A stretch of DNA of 64,000 nucleotides from Chromohalobacter moromii. GTDB lineage: Bacteria > Pseudomonadota > Gammaproteobacteria > Pseudomonadales > Halomonadaceae. The notes under the pieces are model-generated. The model had not been told where the DNA came from, made no database searches, and worked only from the letters and a program-made list of their open reading frames with translations. Position 1 is the stretch's first letter; every line of letters starts with the position of its first letter. This document shows, piece after piece, positions 5,094 to 64,000 of this stretch. The DNA lies in assembly GCF_023091865.1 (NCBI RefSeq), contig NZ_JAHXDI010000002.1:248001-312000 (forward strand). Direction: 5' to 3'. Both the position numbers and the translations under genes were made by a program.

Positions 5094-5202
5094 CGCCTGC
5101 GCCTGGCTGGGCCACTATTCTCGTGCCGCTGCAAAATCAGTGGCCGGGTGTGGAAGCCCGATGAGGTAATCGCAGGCGCACGGCGCCCTAGGCGCTTTTT
5201 TT
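5094..5202 (+). ncRNA. Candidate C4-like antisense/immunity RNA
   Basis: The 337-base gap between the two antirepressor genes contains nested complementary segments. An outer stem pairs 5094-5101 with 5171-5178 (8 bp). An inner stem pairs 5110-5116 with 5139-5145 (7 bp), and a small hairpin CGGG...CCCG lies at 5145-5160. A perfect intrinsic terminator follows (5183-5202). The layout, a short structured RNA ended by a terminator directly before an antirepressor, matches the C4 RNA of P1/P7 and the CI RNA of P4, which pair with antirepressor leaders to silence them. Its 5' end and promoter are not identified. A covariance-model search would settle it. Confidence 0.6.
5183..5202 (+). terminator. 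Intrinsic terminator of the antirepressor-leader RNA
   Basis: Stem GCGCC (5183-5187), loop CTA, stem GGCGC (5191-5195), then seven T. The stem is short but perfect and the T run is strong. It would end the structured RNA before the antirepressor message. Confidence 0.8.
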
Positions 5203-5291
5203 GTGTTTGCCCGTTATGGCGGGCCGTGCGCGGGAGGCCTTCGGGCCTGCCGGGTTTCCCTGTGATTCCCCCGGTCTTCCACCCCGCGTAC

Positions 5292-5348
5292 GGTCCGCCC
5301 CCAATCATGTGGAAGTGAGGTGGCGGACCCTGAATCAAATCCAGGGAG
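5292..5348 (+). promoter_or_regulatory. Alternative hairpins in antirepressor leader
   Basis: GGTCCGCC (5292-5299) pairs with GGCGGACC (5322-5329). The last bases of that arm also begin CCCTG (5328-5332), which pairs with CAGGG (5342-5346) and would bury the ribosome-binding site GGGAG (5344-5348). The two hairpins cannot form together, so the leader looks like a translational switch. This is a structure inference only. Confidence 0.5.
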
Positions 5349-12534: not shown

Positions 12535-13503
12535 ATGCCCACGATTCCGCAGGAAATCGCCGAGTCGACCGAGAAGCTGACTACCAATACCGACATCGTC
12601 GACCAGTTCGTCCACGGCCCGGCCACGATCTATATCCCCGTGCGCGGCGGCACGCTGCGCCCGCTTCTCTACTGGCAAGGGACCTTTCAGGACAAGGTCG
12701 TCGAACTCGCGGGGCCCTATGTGCAGCAGGCCGAGGACTCGGCCAGCGCCGCCGCGCAGTCCGCGCAGACGGCTGCTGAAAAACGCGACCAAACCGCACT
12801 TGATGCACAGGCCACCGCCGCCGATCGGCAGCAGACGGGGATAGATCGCCAAGCCGCCGCCGATTCAGCCACTGCCTCGAGCGAAAGCGCCACCACGGCC
12901 GGCGAGGCGCAGGTGGCCGCAGAAACGGCGCGGGATAAATCGAAGGCCTGGGCCAGTCAGGAAACGGGAGAGGTTGAGCCAGGCCTCAAGTCCGCCAAGC
13001 AATATGCGGAAGAAGCCGCTTCATACGGTGATCCCAACGCATTCAACATCACCGCCGATCAGACCAGCGACACGCGGCGACTGGATGAATGGGCGGGGCA
13101 GGCTAGGGCCAACCAGCAGGAGCTCTCATCACTTGTGGCAGGCGGTAATTTCACGGCAATGCCCACCATTAATGGTGATCCCATTGTTGAGAGTGGCAGT
13201 AACAGTTTTGGTGACTGGGTTCGATTTTACGGCGGTAGAGTGTTCATGAATAGAGAGGTCGAGCCGAACTATAACGAAAGTAGTTTTCAAAATTATGCTA
13301 TGCCCTTAACTGGCGATAACAGGAGGGTTAGTGGCGGCTTTGCAAAGACTAACCATGAGGGGAATGGGCCGGGTAATGATGCCCTAGATGTCTTGAGGGA
13401 TGCGACCATGACTATTACTGATAGTCAATGGAAAATTGCATTTAGAGGGATCACTAGTTCAACTGCCGAAGCGCGTTTGAATTTATGGGCAATGTTTTAT
13501 TGA
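12535..13503 (+). CDS. Phage tail fibre protein with coiled-coil shaft
   Basis: This 322-residue protein has a small N-terminal anchor (residues 1-60). A long Ala/Gln/Thr-rich repeat-like stretch follows at about 62-165 (SASAAAQSAQTAAEKRDQ and similar), typical of trimeric coiled-coil fibre shafts. The distinct C-terminal domain at about 190-322 is Asn/Gly-rich and probably contacts the host. DNA encoding the C-terminal part is clearly lower in GC than the N-terminal part, a sign of tip-domain exchange. Downstream are two small chaperone-like genes. Confidence 0.75.
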   Translation: MPTIPQEIAESTEKLTTNTDIVDQFVHGPATIYIPVRGGTLRPLLYWQGTFQDKVVELAGPYVQQAEDSASAAAQSAQTAAEKRDQTALDAQATAADRQQTGIDRQAAADSATASSESATTAGEAQVAAETARDKSKAWASQETGEVEPGLKSAKQYAEEAASYGDPNAFNITADQTSDTRRLDEWAGQARANQQELSSLVAGGNFTAMPTINGDPIVESGSNSFGDWVRFYGGRVFMNREVEPNYNESSFQNYAMPLTGDNRRVSGGFAKTNHEGNGPGNDALDVLRDATMTITDSQWKIAFRGITSSTAEARLNLWAMFY

Positions 13504-13519
13504 GTACTTGGAGGTGCTT

Positions 13520-13888
13520 ATGAAGATCAATATGCTAGCAGGCCCCGGTCCTGACTATTACAAAATAATAGGTGATGTCATCACTGCCTACGTCGGCAGC
13601 GAGTCAGAAAATTATGATCTATCAGTTATCGAAGAAGGTGACACGGTTACCGATGTCTCCTCAATAGGTGGCATCCAGCCTATTCATTATGCAACTCGCG
13701 AAAATGGCGAGCTGAAAGTCAACCTTTGCCAGCGAGTAGGCCCCGGCTATTGGTCGGAATCCGGCTGGTTCGATGCGAGCGAGTATGACCCCGATGCCGT
13801 TCATGTTGTATTCGATGGGTCCAAGGCTTTTTGGGGCACGCCCGTCGTCTACACGCGCCAGGGCGCGATAACACCGGAGGCTTCCTGA
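13520..13888 (+). CDS. Small protein following tail fibre gene
   Basis: The 122-residue product starts at ATG 13520 with GGAGG at 13510-13514. It is acidic with a beta-rich pattern (AYVGSESENYDLSV..., CQRVGPGYWSESGWF). The 5' half is AT-richer, like the preceding fibre tip, suggesting the two moved together. It may be a fibre partner or tip protein. I do not recognise a named family. It overlaps the next gene by one base at the TGATG junction. Confidence 0.55.
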   Translation: MKINMLAGPGPDYYKIIGDVITAYVGSESENYDLSVIEEGDTVTDVSSIGGIQPIHYATRENGELKVNLCQRVGPGYWSESGWFDASEYDPDAVHVVFDGSKAFWGTPVVYTRQGAITPEAS

Positions 13889-14322
13889 TGGGATCGCTAA
13901 CGATCAAGAAAGCGCCTACCGCCGCTGAGCAGTTGCATAAGGCCCAGCGCCAGCAACTACGCCAATTCAACGACGACTATGATGCCGCTGCGAAACCTCT
14001 CATCAAAGATTATCCCGAGGCCGAGCGGTTGAGCTGGGCCAAGCAGCTCGACGAAGCGTCGCGGTACCGTGAGTGGCAAGAAGCCGGAGAGAATGGGACC
14101 GCGCCGCCGACGCCCGCGCTGAATGCGATCCTGAAAGGGCGCAATAACGGCGACGGCACGGAGACGCTGGCCGATCTGGTTACTGCAGTCCTGACGCGCG
14201 CTGACGCGTTCATCCAGTGGCAGGAGTACACCGGAATCCGCCATCGCGGCGAGCGCCTGATCCTCAACGCCGAAACGATCGAGGACGTACAGGCCGTGAC
14301 CTGGGAGTCACTGACGTCATAG
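13888..14322 (+). CDS. Tail fibre assembly chaperone-like protein
   Basis: At 144 residues it has a helical, charged N-terminus (TAAEQLHKAQRQQLRQF), a middle YREWQEAGENGTAPPTPALNAIL segment and a C-terminal VQAVTWESL motif. This resembles small tail-fibre-associated chaperones, including DUF4376-type proteins, that follow fibre genes. The coupled start (TGATG with the previous stop) supports expression together. Fibre chaperones help fibre trimers fold; the exact partner is presumably the fibre at 12535. A fragment with a similar ending occurs at 16182-16259. Confidence 0.55.
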   Translation: MGSLTIKKAPTAAEQLHKAQRQQLRQFNDDYDAAAKPLIKDYPEAERLSWAKQLDEASRYREWQEAGENGTAPPTPALNAILKGRNNGDGTETLADLVTAVLTRADAFIQWQEYTGIRHRGERLILNAETIEDVQAVTWESLTS

Positions 14323-15186: not shown

Positions 15187-16188
15187 ATGGCCCACGTCCC
15201 GACAGTCCCGAATTTCGCGCAGTGGGATTTCGAATACGGCGACACCGACGCCGCGATCATCAAAGACAACGCCCGCAATGCCGCCCTGGTTCAGTTCGGT
15301 GGCCAGCTGCGGCAGATGACCCAGACATTCAACGATGATCTGGAAACTGTCGCCGAAGACAAAGCCGCCGCCGCACAGTCAGCGAGCGAGGCGCAGACAT
15401 TCCGCGACGAGGCGCAGGAGATCAGCGAAACCGGCCTGCCGCCTAAGGCGGGCAATGCCGGCGCGATCCTGCGTGTTGCGGATGACGAAAGCGGTTACGT
15501 GCTCGACGCACTGCTGCGCCATTTGCTCCCGGTAGGCGAGATCAAGATGTTCCCGGCGACGGTCGCTCCGGAGGGTTTCCGGAAGGCCAATGGAGATGAA
15601 GTCTCCCGCACGGAATACGCCGATCTGTGGGCTTTCGCCCAGGCCAGCGGCAACCTGGCGGCCAGCGAGGCCGAGAAAGACCCCGTGCAATTCGGCCCCG
15701 GCGACGGCTCGACGACGTTCACGCTGCCGGACTATCGCGGCCTACACCCACGTTTCTGGGATGACGGCCGTGGCATTGATCCTGGTCGCGAAATGGGTAC
15801 GACCCAGCAGAGCCAGAACAAGGCACACGACCATGGCGGCAACACGCGCAACGACACCCACGGCCACGGCGGCAGCATTGGTCAAGGGGGGCTCCACTCC
15901 CATGCTGGCCGCACCGCTGAGGACGGCAATCACCGTCACCCGTATACAGCGCGAGGTAACGCGAGCACCGACACAGGCGGCAGCGCTCGGCAAACGCAAA
16001 CCACAGAAGAGAGCAATTATACCGAATACGCTGGCCTGCACTGGCACTACCTGCAAATCGAAAACGCCGGCTTGCATGGTCACTCACTGACCATCAACAA
16101 CAACACCCACGCTCACGGCATCAACAGCGACGGCGGCGCCGAGGCTCGAGGCATCAACGGCCCGCTGCTCGCGTGTATTCGGTGCTGA
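15187..16188 (+). CDS. Phage tail collar fibre with seven HxH motifs
   Basis: The 333-residue product has an N-terminal anchor (1-60) and a short coiled coil (about 55-85). A phage tail collar domain lies at about 110-190 (VGEIKMFPATVAPEGFRKANG, then FTLPDYRGLHPRFWDDGRG). A Gly/Asn/His-rich C-terminus at about 213-315 carries seven His-x-His motifs: HDH, HGH, HSH, HRH, HWH, HGH and HAH. Such motifs line metal sites in other long tail fibres, for example T4 gp37. RBS GGAGG precedes ATG 15187. It is the likely receptor-contact fibre. Confidence 0.8.
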   Translation: MAHVPTVPNFAQWDFEYGDTDAAIIKDNARNAALVQFGGQLRQMTQTFNDDLETVAEDKAAAAQSASEAQTFRDEAQEISETGLPPKAGNAGAILRVADDESGYVLDALLRHLLPVGEIKMFPATVAPEGFRKANGDEVSRTEYADLWAFAQASGNLAASEAEKDPVQFGPGDGSTTFTLPDYRGLHPRFWDDGRGIDPGREMGTTQQSQNKAHDHGGNTRNDTHGHGGSIGQGGLHSHAGRTAEDGNHRHPYTARGNASTDTGGSARQTQTTEESNYTEYAGLHWHYLQIENAGLHGHSLTINNNTHAHGINSDGGAEARGINGPLLACIRC

Positions 16189-16259
16189 GGGGGCGCATCG
16201 AGCAGGCTGAGTCCGTGAAAGAGGTGCGCGCGGTGGTGTGGGAGAGTCTGGCGGGGTGA
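16182..16259 (+). pseudogene. Remnant of a second tail-fibre chaperone
   Basis: In the frame ending at TGA 16257-16259 the text reads VLRGRIEQAESVKEVRAVVWESLAG. Its end resembles the end of the chaperone at 13888-14322 (ETIEDVQAVTWESLTS). There is no start codon or N-terminal part. I read it as the leftover C-terminus of a duplicated chaperone downstream of the collar fibre. It overlaps the last few codons of the collar gene in another frame. Confidence 0.5.
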
Positions 16260-16288
16260 GCGCTAGCACAATCCGCACGCAGAACAAT

Positions 16289-16313
16289 GCCCCGGCTCCG
16301 GCCGGGGCTTTTT
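16289..16313. terminator. Terminator of the tail operon
   Basis: GCCCCGGC (16289-16296) pairs with GCCGGGGC (16301-16308) around the loop TCCG, followed by TTTTT. It separates the rightward tail operon from the leftward HEPN-like gene. Confidence 0.9.
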
Positions 16314-16321
16314 GTATATAT

Positions 16322-16858
16322 TCAGCCGTGTTCAGTATCTGAGAATTTAAAAGGAAGTCCATCGGTCGTGTCATGTATCACAAGAAGTGATTTCATGTTG
16401 TCAATTTTCTCTGGATGTTCTTTTTTTAGCCAATGTATCCAGTTGCGGCATGCTTCAATTATTTCCCGGCAAAAAATATCGACCTGTAGTTGAAGCACGT
16501 TATCTATAAGGTTTCTATGAATCAAAGCTCCCTTTTGAGGTGTTATGAAGTGAAATCGTTCAAGGGTGTGCTTCGCTTGCTCATCTAATTCTCCACCTCC
16601 CTCGTGTAGGTAGCTGCATCTGAGCCCATAGCAATCTTCAGGCGTTAGTAAAACTTTTACCGCTTTATCTGCACCGTATTGAACGGTATAGGTTGGGAGT
16701 ACCCATTGTTCATACCATTTTTTATAGCGTGATCGACCGCGAGTATCCGGATCCTCTATCTTTCCGCAAATGTCGGGGATGGTAAGGGCAGTGGAGAGTG
16801 CACCGTACCAGTCTTCATGGCGGAGGGCCGTTTCGATGGATTGCAGAAAACGTTCCAT
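16322..16858 (-). CDS. HEPN-like hypothetical protein, candidate prophage moron
   Basis: The 178-residue product is AT-richer than its neighbours and transcribed against the tail genes. It is mainly helical and has the segment GLRCSYLHEGGGELDEQ, in which R80 and H85 are spaced like the Rx4-6H site of HEPN nucleases. HEPN proteins include phage-defence and toxin RNases, so a role in host protection is possible. The start ATG is the complement of 16856-16858. A longer frame running up to 17356 overlaps the SRAP gene and is rejected. The whole-family identity is uncertain; the HEPN link rests on the one motif. Confidence 0.5.
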   Translation of the reverse strand: MERFLQSIETALRHEDWYGALSTALTIPDICGKIEDPDTRGRSRYKKWYEQWVLPTYTVQYGADKAVKVLLTPEDCYGLRCSYLHEGGGELDEQAKHTLERFHFITPQKGALIHRNLIDNVLQLQVDIFCREIIEACRNWIHWLKKEHPEKIDNMKSLLVIHDTTDGLPFKFSDTEHG

Positions 16859-16888
16859 AATGACAAAAACCCCAATATGTGAATTGTT

Positions 16889-17542
16889 ATGTGTGGACGC
16901 TTTGCTTTCTACTCCCAGCTCGCTGCGGTGGCCAAGCGGCTCAAAGCCCAGCTGCCGGCCGATACGCCGTCGCCTCGCTACAACGTGTCTCCGGGGACAT
17001 GGATCACCGGCGTAGGCCACCCTGCGCCTGATTCGGAGCCTACCATCGATCGGTACTGGTGGGGCTACCACCCGGCCTGGGCCGGTGAGTCGGCGCCGTC
17101 GCCGATCAATGCCAAGGTCGAGAAGGTCGCCACCAGCAATTACTACAAGGGTGCCTTTGCTCGCCATCGCATCCTGATCCCCGCTGATGGCTGGTACGAG
17201 TGGCTGCCTGTCGATGGGCGCAAGCAGCCGCATTTCATCTGCCGTGAGGACCGTGAGCCGATCTACTTGGCGGCTATCTGGGCCGAACGCGCCGACGGCT
17301 CGCCGGGCTGCGCGATCCTCACCGAGCCGGCTCGTGGTATTGCCGCCGAGATTCATTCACGCATGCCTGTGGCACTCGACGACGAGAGCCTAGAACCTTG
17401 GCTCGACCCACACCTGACCGACCGCGAATCGATCCGCGGGGCAGTGGGTCACTTGCCCGCAAAGCTGCTCACCCACTGGGCTGTTGATCGCCGCGTCGGC
17501 AACGTGAAGAACGACACGGCCGATCTGCCCAATCCGGCGTGA
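16889..17542 (+). CDS. SOS response-associated peptidase family protein (YedK/HMCES-like)
   Basis: The 217-residue protein is a SRAP-domain enzyme. It starts MCGRF, where Cys2 becomes the catalytic residue after Met removal and forms a covalent crosslink with abasic sites in single-stranded DNA. Other signatures are NAKVEKV (about residue 74, the conserved Asn/Glu region), LIPADGWYEW (about 97) and EIHSRMPV with its conserved His (about 155). It shields abasic sites during replication. The gene is transcribed divergently from the HEPN-like gene with only 30 bases between starts, and convergently with umuC. No LexA-type box was seen upstream. Confidence 0.9.
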   Translation: MCGRFAFYSQLAAVAKRLKAQLPADTPSPRYNVSPGTWITGVGHPAPDSEPTIDRYWWGYHPAWAGESAPSPINAKVEKVATSNYYKGAFARHRILIPADGWYEWLPVDGRKQPHFICREDREPIYLAAIWAERADGSPGCAILTEPARGIAAEIHSRMPVALDDESLEPWLDPHLTDRESIRGAVGHLPAKLLTHWAVDRRVGNVKNDTADLPNPA

Positions 17543-61640: not shown

Positions 61641-62408
61641 TTACTTGGCTTCTTCAGAGAAATACTTGTTGTAGAGTTCCTGATAGGTGCCGTTGTCCTT
61701 CAGGGTCGCCAGCGCCTCGTTGAACTGGTCTGCCAGCTCCTGATCGCGCTTGCGGAATGCAATGCCGAAGCCTTCGCCGAAATACTTCTTGGGTTCGGTG
61801 ATCATCTCGCCGACGACTTTATAATCGCCTTCTTCGCTATCCAGCAGGGTGGACTTGCCGACCGGGAAGTCCAGGAAGGCGATGTCGACACGACCGGCGT
61901 CCATGTCGAGGACGAGGTCATCGGCGGTGGAGTAACGGCTGATCTCGGCCGCGTCGCCGAACATATCGGTGACGTAGTTGTCCTGCAATGTGCCGCGTTG
62001 CACCCCGATGGTCTTGCCTTCGAGCGTTTGCTTGGCCGGGAAGTCGATGCTGCTGTCTTGCGGTGTGAACCACGCGGAGGGCGGCTGGAAGTACGGGTCG
62101 GAGAAGAGCACGGTTCCCTTGCGTTCTTCGTTGATGGTCATCGAGGACATGATCGCGTCGTACTTACGCGCCATCAGGCCCGGAATGATGCCGTCCCACG
62201 CCTGCACGACCCACTCGCACTTCCTGTCGATCTCTTCGCAGATGGCGTTGCCGAGCTCGATGTCGAAGCCGGTGAGTTCACCGTCGGCCGTGCGGTATTC
62301 CATCGGCTCGTAAGGCACGTCGACGCCGATACGCAAGGTGTCCTGAGCGACGGCGCTGCCAGCCAGCAGGGCGCTACCGAGAAGGGTGATGGTCAGCAAT
62401 TTTTTCAT
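61641..62408 (-). CDS. Amino-acid ABC transporter substrate-binding protein (HisJ/ArgT-like)
   Basis: The 255-residue precursor has a signal peptide (residues 1-21, ending AVA) and the SBP family-3 fold: TLRIGVDVPYEPMEYRTADGELTGFDIEL, MSSMTINEERKGTVLFSDPYF, GKTIGVQRGTLQDNYV and FLDFPVGKSTLL. Such proteins bind basic or polar amino acids in the periplasm. The permease and ATPase are not adjacent here. Start 62408 is clear. Confidence 0.92.
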   Translation of the reverse strand: MKKLLTITLLGSALLAGSAVAQDTLRIGVDVPYEPMEYRTADGELTGFDIELGNAICEEIDRKCEWVVQAWDGIIPGLMARKYDAIMSSMTINEERKGTVLFSDPYFQPPSAWFTPQDSSIDFPAKQTLEGKTIGVQRGTLQDNYVTDMFGDAAEISRYSTADDLVLDMDAGRVDIAFLDFPVGKSTLLDSEEGDYKVVGEMITEPKKYFGEGFGIAFRKRDQELADQFNEALATLKDNGTYQELYNKYFSEEAK

Positions 62409-62716
62409 GGAAAGCTCTCTACGGAATTTGCAGTGTGTTGTTATGGAGCCGCCTCGTGAGCAGCCCTGAGTTTCACGTCTTGCAGCATATCGAAGCGCTG
62501 CCGCCATGCCTAGCGTCGCGTGGCTGGTAGAGGAAGCGGGTGTGGATGTCTGTAGGTAGCCGCTGGTCATCTTCTGCCAACGCCACGTCCCCTCTGTGTT
62601 AACACCATAGGGTGACGGGGTTCATGGATCTGCTTTACAAACGGGGCAACGTCCGCCCGCAACTCAGACAGCGGCTGGATATATCTTCATCGACGCGAAC
62701 TCTTGCCATGAGAATT
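62409..62716. other. Intergenic region left of the cassette array
   Basis: I see no convincing gene here. It should hold the promoter of the binding-protein gene (minus strand). A plus-strand frame at 62612-62833 is rejected. Towards its right edge the sequence joins the IS3-family remnant; the remnant's exact far end is unclear. Confidence 0.4.
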
Positions 62717-62817
62717 ACCTGTGTACGAATACAGGAGTGTAACGTTGGTTGCTCATGGCGCTCCCTCCTATGCACTAATCATAGGCCAGAAGTGTCCACT
62801 AGAGTGGGGGAAGTCCA
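62717..62817 (-). mobile_element. IS3-family insertion sequence remnant
   Basis: On the minus strand the end TGGACTTCCCCCACTC (from 62817) is an IS3-type terminal repeat. It is followed by a frame starting at ATG 62756 that reads MSNQRYTPVFVHR, the hallmark start of IS3 orfA (MSNQRYTPEFK) broken soon after. Only the left end and the first codons survive. Its tip abuts the attC fragment at 62818, so the IS apparently inserted into that attC and then decayed. Confidence 0.75.
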
Positions 62818-62843
62818 GCGTCGGCTTGAATGAATTGTTAGGT
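62818..62843 (-). other. Truncated attC site of integron cassette
   Basis: Read on the minus strand this is ACCTAAC followed by AATTCATTCAAGCCGACGC, the typical start (R'' and L'') of a 59-base element. The stop codon of the adjoining gene lies inside ACCTAAC. The L'/R' half is missing because the IS remnant starts at 62817. Confidence 0.8.
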
Positions 62844-63512
62844 CTCAAAGTCGTATTCCTCATCCATTTCCCGCTTGACGATTCGACTGAACATTTCTTT
62901 CAGCTTGACGTCGACATGAGATACAAACTCTTGGGATGCCATGCAGTACGCCAGATCGGGAGAGTCTTCATAGCGGATCTTTATGCGTGAAAAGTGCTCG
63001 CCACCGGCAATGTATGTCAGCACTCTTGCATTCGAAGACGAAAGATAAGCTTCTCTATCTGTCGCTGATGATGCTTTGTCATATAGATCGAACCTCGATA
63101 GAATGGCGTTCTCGATTTCATCTGTGTTGAGCAGTGACATTTGATTGAAAGATGGCACTATCGACTGTCTGGAATCAAGCAGCAACTCGTACTCGTCGCT
63201 TTCTGGATTGACTCCGTTGCATACAACAGACGACGCAAATGCTAAGCACTCAAGCAAAATAGGTTCTTCGCCTGCAATGTCGACAAGCCGCTTATCTTTG
63301 GCCGCGATAATGTCAAAGTATTCTACCGCCAGCAGCGAGTATGAACTTGCAACGGCGGCTTCCAGCGCCGCATCGATGCTCTGTTTGCGCAAGGTAGGGT
63401 GCGTGGTTTTTGGCCTGAACTCAAGCTGCTTCCAGACCACGTCCCATGACTCTTTGGCCGCTACAAATCGACGAAAGTGCGCTAGAGGCGGTAAATTCTT
63501 CTTGAAGATCAT
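62838..63512 (-). CDS. Hypothetical protein in integron cassette
   Basis: The 224-residue protein is AT-richer than the chromosome. It is helical and charged, without membrane or signal segments and without a motif that I recognise. It begins MIFKKNLPPLAHFRRFVAA and ends EEYDFET. The start ATG (63512) lies 17 bases after the core site on the minus strand and the stop overlaps the attC at the other end: exactly the compact, promoterless layout of a gene cassette. Cassette genes commonly encode proteins with no known function. Confidence 0.7.
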   Translation of the reverse strand: MIFKKNLPPLAHFRRFVAAKESWDVVWKQLEFRPKTTHPTLRKQSIDAALEAAVASSYSLLAVEYFDIIAAKDKRLVDIAGEEPILLECLAFASSVVCNGVNPESDEYELLLDSRQSIVPSFNQMSLLNTDEIENAILSRFDLYDKASSATDREAYLSSSNARVLTYIAGGEHFSRIKIRYEDSPDLAYCMASQEFVSHVDVKLKEMFSRIVKREMDEEYDFET

Positions 63513-63529
63513 AGTGAGCCCAGATTAAG

Positions 63530-63613
63530 ACCTAACGCCAACAGCACGCGCGGCTACGGAATGGAGGCGAAGCCGCAATGTAGTAGACGTCGCTGTGACT
63601 GTAATTGTTACAA
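63530..63613 (-). other. attC site between two cassettes (84 bp)
   Basis: The site is bounded by ACCTAAC (63530-63536, complement GTTAGGT) and GTTACAA (63607-63613). Inside, ACAGCACG (63541-63548) pairs with CGT-C-GCTGT (63588-63596), leaving one extrahelical C at 63591. GCGGCT (63550-63555) pairs with AGCCGC (63571-63576) to form the central stem with a loop. Paired outer and inner arms with an unpaired base are the structural identity of an attC recognised by integron integrases. Confidence 0.82.
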
Positions 63614-63634
63614 GGATAGTATAAGGAATGGAAA

Positions 63635-64000
63635 TTACTGAACTGCATTGTTGTTGGCTTTGCAATCAATATCGGAACTCTTTAGTCTACAGTCATTTTT
63701 CTCCAACACTAAAAAATCTTTATTTCCAATAACAAATTGAACTAACTTTCCATAGTTAGAATCAGGGCTCGCAACTGAAAAAAGTATGGAAACAATGATG
63801 GCGAGTGTCGCAAAAAATAAGGAGCCAAATGCTCCCTTTACTCCAGAGACCCACCAGCCGTCTTTTTGAGATTTTACTTGAGCCAGCAAATCGCTTTCTA
63901 GAGCTTCTTTATAGGCTTCTTCTACTCGTTTTTCTGCGTAATGCTCTGCAAAAACATATAGCACTTCTTCTGCATCGCCGCGCAATTTATCCAGCTTGCC
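63635..64000 (-). CDS. Hypothetical membrane protein in integron cassette (partial)
   Basis: The frame is open to the window edge, so the start is outside. The visible part is helical and charged, then a single hydrophobic segment (GSLFFATLAIIVSILFSVAS) and a soluble tail with two Cys. The DNA is strongly AT-rich. The stop at 63635 lies 22 bases from the attC, as expected for a cassette gene. Function unknown; one membrane helix suggests a membrane-anchored protein. Confidence 0.65.
   Translation of the reverse strand, partial: GKLDKLRGDAEEVLYVFAEHYAEKRVEEAYKEALESDLLAQVKSQKDGWWVSGVKGAFGSLFFATLAIIVSILFSVASPDSNYGKLVQFVIGNKDFLVLEKNDCRLKSSDIDCKANNNAVQ

Follow-up and report, generated by a model that had tools for sequence, protein, structure and literature searches.

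Chromosomal integrons, as described for Vibrio and Xanthomonas, share with the locus analysed here an attI site, cassettes with attC sites in one orientation, proteins of unknown function and decay of the integrase (PMC12444791 and PMC11023631, both in excerpt). A further likeness is to CALIN, arrays of attC sites without an adjoining integrase, for which a usual default is a call from two attC sites upwards (PMC12444791, in excerpt). Integrons with duplicated or pseudogene intI are alike in that more than one integron-like place is present per genome, along with decayed intI copies (excerpt of PMC2426708). Concerning the sites themselves, the excerpted part of PMC8946536 states that two attI sites can recombine with each other and that non-cognate attI/IntI pairs generally recombine poorly.

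The window, by which we mean the whole 64-kb stretch of DNA that was analysed (C2:248001-312000 of the 3.47-Mb genome G000, which is in six contigs), ends on its right in an integron array of two cassettes; the attI platform to which it belongs has no integrase and is termed platform B. Read along the minus strand, the order is attI (right of the window), cassette 1, attC, cassette 2, an attC cut by an insertion sequence and the chromosome (Table 1). The GC content of the two cassette coding stretches is 39.6% and 48.0%, compared with 61.9% for the window, in agreement with the low GC reported for both genes in the initial annotation. The locus is unremarkable as an attC array. Its setting is unusual, in that it lies behind a conserved attI that has no integrase and has several counterparts in the genome. 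Two more low-GC stretches were seen in the window at 13001-14000 (0.508) and 16001-17000 (0.513; window 0.619). The minus strand at 62600-62720 carries what is left of a short gene (starting MARVRVDED), of which a longer frame was seen at the same flank in locus L048.

Table 1. Coordinates of the integron features and of the related insertion sequences. Plain numbers are window positions; C2, C3 and C4 are contigs of G000.
Feature	Position	Strand	Evidence or remark
Cassette 1: last 121 codons of 196-aa ORF	63635..64000	-	no Pfam match above cut-off
Whole 196-aa ORF	G000:C2:311635-312225		start right of window
attC of cassette 1, 84 nt	63530..63613	-	model R1: 61.6 bits, E 3.6e-11
Cassette 2: 224-aa ORF	62838..63512	-	97% DNA identity over 722 bp with array in another genus, from crossover
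Left half (26 nt) of cassette 2 attC, cut by IS end	62818..62843	-	whole site in G119
IS3-family left-end remnant, 91 bp, with start of orfA-like frame	62727..62817	-	
Chromosomal flank: solute-binding protein family 3 gene	61641..62408	-	Pfam SBP_bac_3, E 3.8e-42
attI block, ~155 bp	C2:312520-312680		85% identity over 155 bp with region beside intI fragment, C2:146254-146466
Second integron (platform A)	G000:C2:146254-150787		intI fragment, attI, four attC, IS end in further attC-like site, NUDIX gene
Fourth attI of the genome	G000:C4:35316-40346		six attC sites behind
IS3-group loci	62727-62817; C2:150725; C3:310436-310500; L048, L066, L187, L200, L201		

The initial annotation had the array continuing to the right of position 64000 and proposed a search there for attI, intI and more cassettes. 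The attI was found; no intI adjoins it and no long further array is present: after the rest of cassette 1, the array ends at the attI block within about 0.5 kb and chromosomal genes follow, with ORFs that by inspection resemble a succinylglutamate desuccinylase-type gene and an amino-acid ABC transporter. By its sequence, this attI adjoins the first cassette as in a complete integron; integrase homology was not detected beside it in 1.45 kb. A scan of the entire 3.47-Mb genome gave no match over the cut-off of the integron integrase model, and the two best sets of sub-cut-off matches resemble XerC/XerD. Each of the genome's four attC clusters has an attI at its head. Among the other platform-A proteins that were scanned, Pfam matches above cut-off were obtained for DUF6082 (a cassette), NUDIX and Phage_int_SAM_4, the latter in the intI fragment. 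Since the integrase in this genome is only a fragment, the array is probably in a frozen state that would last until integrase is provided anew.

For attC detection, candidate sites were collected at attI places of the genus, of which 33 were chosen and 26 aligned, and covariance model R1 was built from these 26 sites, all of which come from other genomes. The seed alignment revealed two-sided, pairing-preserving changes in 14 of its 15 consensus pairs. On the minus strand, R1 matched the attC of cassette 1 with exactly the bounds given in the initial annotation and far above background, the next best match in the window reaching 24.3 bits (E 0.003; R1 E-values are rough). This marks the site as genuine, with the conserved boxes and the covarying bottom-strand stem of an integron cassette array. 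The second attC-type start that had been noted is likewise real; it is a left half-site, which reads ACCTAACAATTCATTCAAGCCGACGC and stops where the end of the IS3-family element begins at 62817. Locally, the attC cluster without neighbouring integrase thus consists of one whole and one cut site. Over the whole genome, R1 found at least ten attC sites (E up to 0.1), which form four clusters; 150 of the 1544 candidates from the first look were scored. With other attC sites present and the covariance score well above background, the outcome named in the initial annotation as refuting it did not arise. Folding energy proved to be weak evidence for attC when taken alone, with 16 of 200 shuffles folding equally well or better (z -1.41). 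At the gathering cut-off, Rfam gave three matches in the window, none of them at the attC. Rfam matches to C4 antisense RNA, isrK and c4-a1b1 were seen at 5115-5304 on the plus strand, a phage-immunity-type RNA module.

Cassette 2 has a close counterpart in G119, a genome of another genus, where 700 of 722 bp of DNA match those of the window. The match begins at GGCGTTAGG, the GTT crossover, as is characteristic of cassette exchange, and finishes at GCCGACGC, which is where the IS end begins in the window. In G119, it is preceded by a different attC and followed by a whole second attC, and the 12 kb around it gave no match to the attI core. Judged from this alignment, the 224-aa gene is a real cassette, and the bounding GTT crossover, together with the R1 match, supports the reading of the right edge as integron gene cassettes with attC sites. 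Among 275 family genomes, 3 contain the 224-aa protein or a relative, its own genome included, with identities of 94% in G119 and 35% in G062. The plasmid collection held no match to this protein and one distant, partial match to the 196-aa protein (29% identity over 62%). A single-sequence structure model of the 224-aa protein reached a mean pLDDT of 41, too low to serve as a query for a fold search.

The cassette proteins had been described as unknown, and indeed neither the 224-aa nor the 196-aa protein matches a Pfam family above cut-off. Otopetrin was considered for the 196-aa protein and rejected, the Pfam match being sub-cut-off only (E 0.008-0.024). The suggested anti-phage role was not borne out: neither protein is matched by a PADLOC family of known anti-phage defence genes, and the 63-aa ORF, which precedes the 196-aa ORF in cassette 1 and overlaps with it, gave one weak match (E 0.012).

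Each of 10 Chromohalobacter genomes proved to contain 2-7 places with a homologue of the attI. Stretches with 45 attI matches were taken from these genomes and grouped by their leader-side flanks, resulting in groups of 10 (A), 9 (B, that of the window), 8 (C), 8 (D) and 4 (E) members, one pair and four singletons. Group A carries intI or pieces of it at 7 of its 10 places. Group B has one member in 9 of the 10 genomes, and the SBP_bac_3 flank is common to 6 of the 9 loci, the window's own counted. In the one-contig genome G002, the attI places are spread between 535 and 1820 kb. Within the family, the attI core was detected in 137 of 275 genomes and 15 of 24 genera, with copy numbers to be taken as lower bounds, since scoring covered only about three candidates in each genome. 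No match to the core was obtained in the plasmid and phage collections.

For a closer comparison, 74 attI places were compiled, namely the 45 from Chromohalobacter, 28 from other genera and the fourth attI of this genome. Conservation amounted to 1.31 bits per position in the 56-nt core, partly as a selection effect of choosing the places by their core, and to 0.10 bits in the 40 nt after G^TTA. The G^TTA edge is less open to this effect, since most matches end at query position 153, although the query itself extended 8 nt beyond the edge. With R1 matches at E up to 0.05, attC was found within 5 kb in the expected direction at 60 of 71 places (34/42 plus 26/29); the three remaining places of the 74 were set aside, as their array side extended over less than 1.5 kb. 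Counted from attI, 157 attC sites at the 74 places lie in sense orientation and none in antisense; attC sites upstream, six in number, are confined to tandem attIs. The succession of attI and same-sense attC was also evident on three named contigs, from Halomonas, Modicisalibacter and Salinicola. On sequence grounds, we conclude that the conserved block is an attI family, which occupies several fixed, different chromosomal places in Chromohalobacter and is widespread in Halomonadaceae.

The platform-B leaders align in all 36 pairs, with a mean identity of 87.1%, and in the first 400 bp after the crossover none of the 36 pairs shares sequence (one member providing only about 100 bp). Pairs sharing sequence after the crossover numbered 0/45 in group A, 1/28 in C, 0/91 in D, a count that takes in the pair and the singletons, and 0/6 in E. 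With 0/36 in B and 0/45 in A, the integrase-less platform therefore varies as much as the intI-bearing one. In G203, the intI-bearing attI and another attI, 0.38 Mb distant, are followed by first cassettes of 91% identity. A cassette extending from GTT to attC is 96% identical at attIs of G009 (Chromohalobacter) and G140 (another genus), at neither of which integrase homology was found in 1.45 kb. Platform-shared DNA initially resembled cassettes in common. Since several of the 11 segments of it that were translated are insertion sequences, only these two cases were kept as cassettes shared between attIs. Identities of 3 kb at tandem attIs (L052, L058, L071) represented the same DNA from two starting points and were dropped.

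The integrase model scored above cut-off in 63 of the 275 family genomes. Of these, 25 genomes with intact intI were picked by hand, 24 of which contain the attI core, 18 at two or more places (in G202 and G041, one attI place is listed once per strand, leaving the count of 18 unaffected). The 1.45 kb on the leader side of attI showed integrase homology at 14 of the 74 places and none at the other 60, the examined leader being shorter than 1.45 kb at some of them; for the platform-B loci, the count was 0/9.

With a probability of roughly 0.7, we read these data as the work of one integrase that loads cassettes in trans at several attI platforms which are fixed in place and have no integrase of their own; platform B, at the right edge of the window, would be one of them. 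The integrase, encoded at platform A in genomes still having intI, would insert cassettes at all attIs in trans. We infer this trans action of one integrase from what the sequences show: where the sites lie and how they are oriented, flanks that are shared, cassettes that differ and no integrase homology beside most attIs. More broadly, we consider it reasonably likely that Halomonadaceae possess distributed integrons, in which one integrase would reshuffle cassettes at vertically inherited attIs and an IS3-family group would insert in attC. Several observations speak against trans loading. The integrase model exceeded the cut-off in 1 of the 10 Chromohalobacter genomes, so the arrays in most of them may now be inactive; 11 of 71 attI places are without attC within 5 kb; most of the platform-shared DNA is insertion sequence, not cassettes; and G214 has an intact intI and no match to the attI core.

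An outer motif, GACTACCGCA...GCGGTAGCGTG, is common to intact integrons and integrase-less platforms; it was seen on the leader side, for example, at 212 and 246 bp before the crossover in L014. In six intact integrons, GCGGTAGCGTG lies beyond intI, 1184-1224 bp from the crossover, and for 30 of the 46 attI places in Chromohalobacter, belonging to groups B, C and D or being the C4 site, the distance is 203-229 bp with no intI between; in group E and at most places of other genera, no GCGGTAGCGTG was found at that distance. This short distance without intI suggests, from motif spacing, that the B, C, D and C4 places derive from complete integrons by intI loss. It allows a reading in which each platform is a former complete integron that was filled by its own, later lost, integrase, the arrays being fossils without any trans action. 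The step from about 1.2 kb to the short distance looks as if intI had dropped out, and the intI fragments of several sizes at platform A fit as well. Still, we regard this reading as rather unlikely: integrase homology is missing from all nine platform-B loci, which places the loss before the genomes split, yet all first cassettes differ, and genomes with one intact intI carry arrays at additional attIs without integrase homology.

That the cassettes arrived without attI, through insertion at non-classical sites or homologous recombination as in ordinary CALIN, is already unlikely, to the point of being hardly credible. Integrase-less arrays are common in other bacteria (PMC12444791 and PMC7923331, in excerpt), but here and elsewhere the conserved attI block, with its sharp G^TTA edge, stands directly before the first cassette. 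Very improbable, too, is that the block is a promoter or regulatory element of the cassettes and no recombination site, as the inverted repeats in its consensus (TTGAACG...CGTTCAA; CTCGTT...AACGAG) might indicate: it adjoins intI in intact integrons, ends at G^TTA and is followed by differing cassettes, as expected of attI; both roles may coexist.

The IS end that cuts the attC of cassette 2, TGGACTTCCCCCACTNNAGTGG, has 24 occurrences in 15 of the 275 family genomes. It follows TAAC after exactly 19 nt in 19 of the 24 and after 20 nt in two, the spacing of one end being taken from the separate TAAC-spacing scan. For the remaining three, there is no TAAC within 60 nt; one of these comes second in a tandem pair and another lies, by eye, behind an attC-like stretch. 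A variant-end copy at C2:150725 stands 4 nt after TAAC. Scanning for TAAC and TGGACTTCCCCCA with a gap of 10-34 nt yielded 36 matches, spread over 20 genomes; the gap was 19 nt in 30 of these, and the reversed pattern was matched 5 times. Judged by this spacing, the group inserts at one fixed attC position. Three copies have both ends, 1270 bp apart, and the one in G075, a full copy, codes for a transposase of the IS3 family (OrfB against NF033516, 212 bits, cut-off 160); the window holds the left end only. With this IS3-type OrfB, the element falls outside the IS1111-attC group, IS1111/IS110 transposases being of the DEDD type (PMC11187229, in excerpt). By eye, no consistent target duplication was seen at the insertions. 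The IS3-group copies found in this genome were all seen at attC or, once, in tandem.

Another insertion sequence with a long transposase ORF was seen to abut the 3' end of attC-like sequence, with its start at GTTGAGGCTGTAGAAAAAC. It was found at L057 and L194 and, by alignment, also at L047, L058, L066 and L069; its transposase we take to be IS1182-like.

No paper on several attI platforms per Halomonadaceae genome or on IS3-family insertion into attC was found among the open-access listings and abstracts searched, which is no proof of novelty in either case. If one integrase does serve several fixed sites in trans, parallel cassette arrays would exist in different neighbourhoods of one cell and cassette capture would not be tied to a single array. 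The natural paralogous attIs of one genome would then make the question of whether integrase-less arrays are dead or alive directly testable. The usual search for integrons relies on integrase and attC and would take attI platforms that lack integrase for integrase-less clusters. With an IS3-family group that targets attC, there would be a second type of transposase, unrelated to the first, that recognises attC.

Set against the known systems, the single intI-attI platform of Vibrio and Xanthomonas contrasts with several homologous attIs in separate places here, most of them without integrase. From CALIN, the arrays differ in being headed by a conserved attI, which is invisible to a search by integrase and attC alone. 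Compared with the duplicated-intI integrons in the excerpt of PMC2426708, it is attI, not intI, that is multiplied and conserved. The IS1111-attC group likewise comprises insertion sequences targeting attC, and the element described here differs from it in its IS3-family transposase (NF033516).
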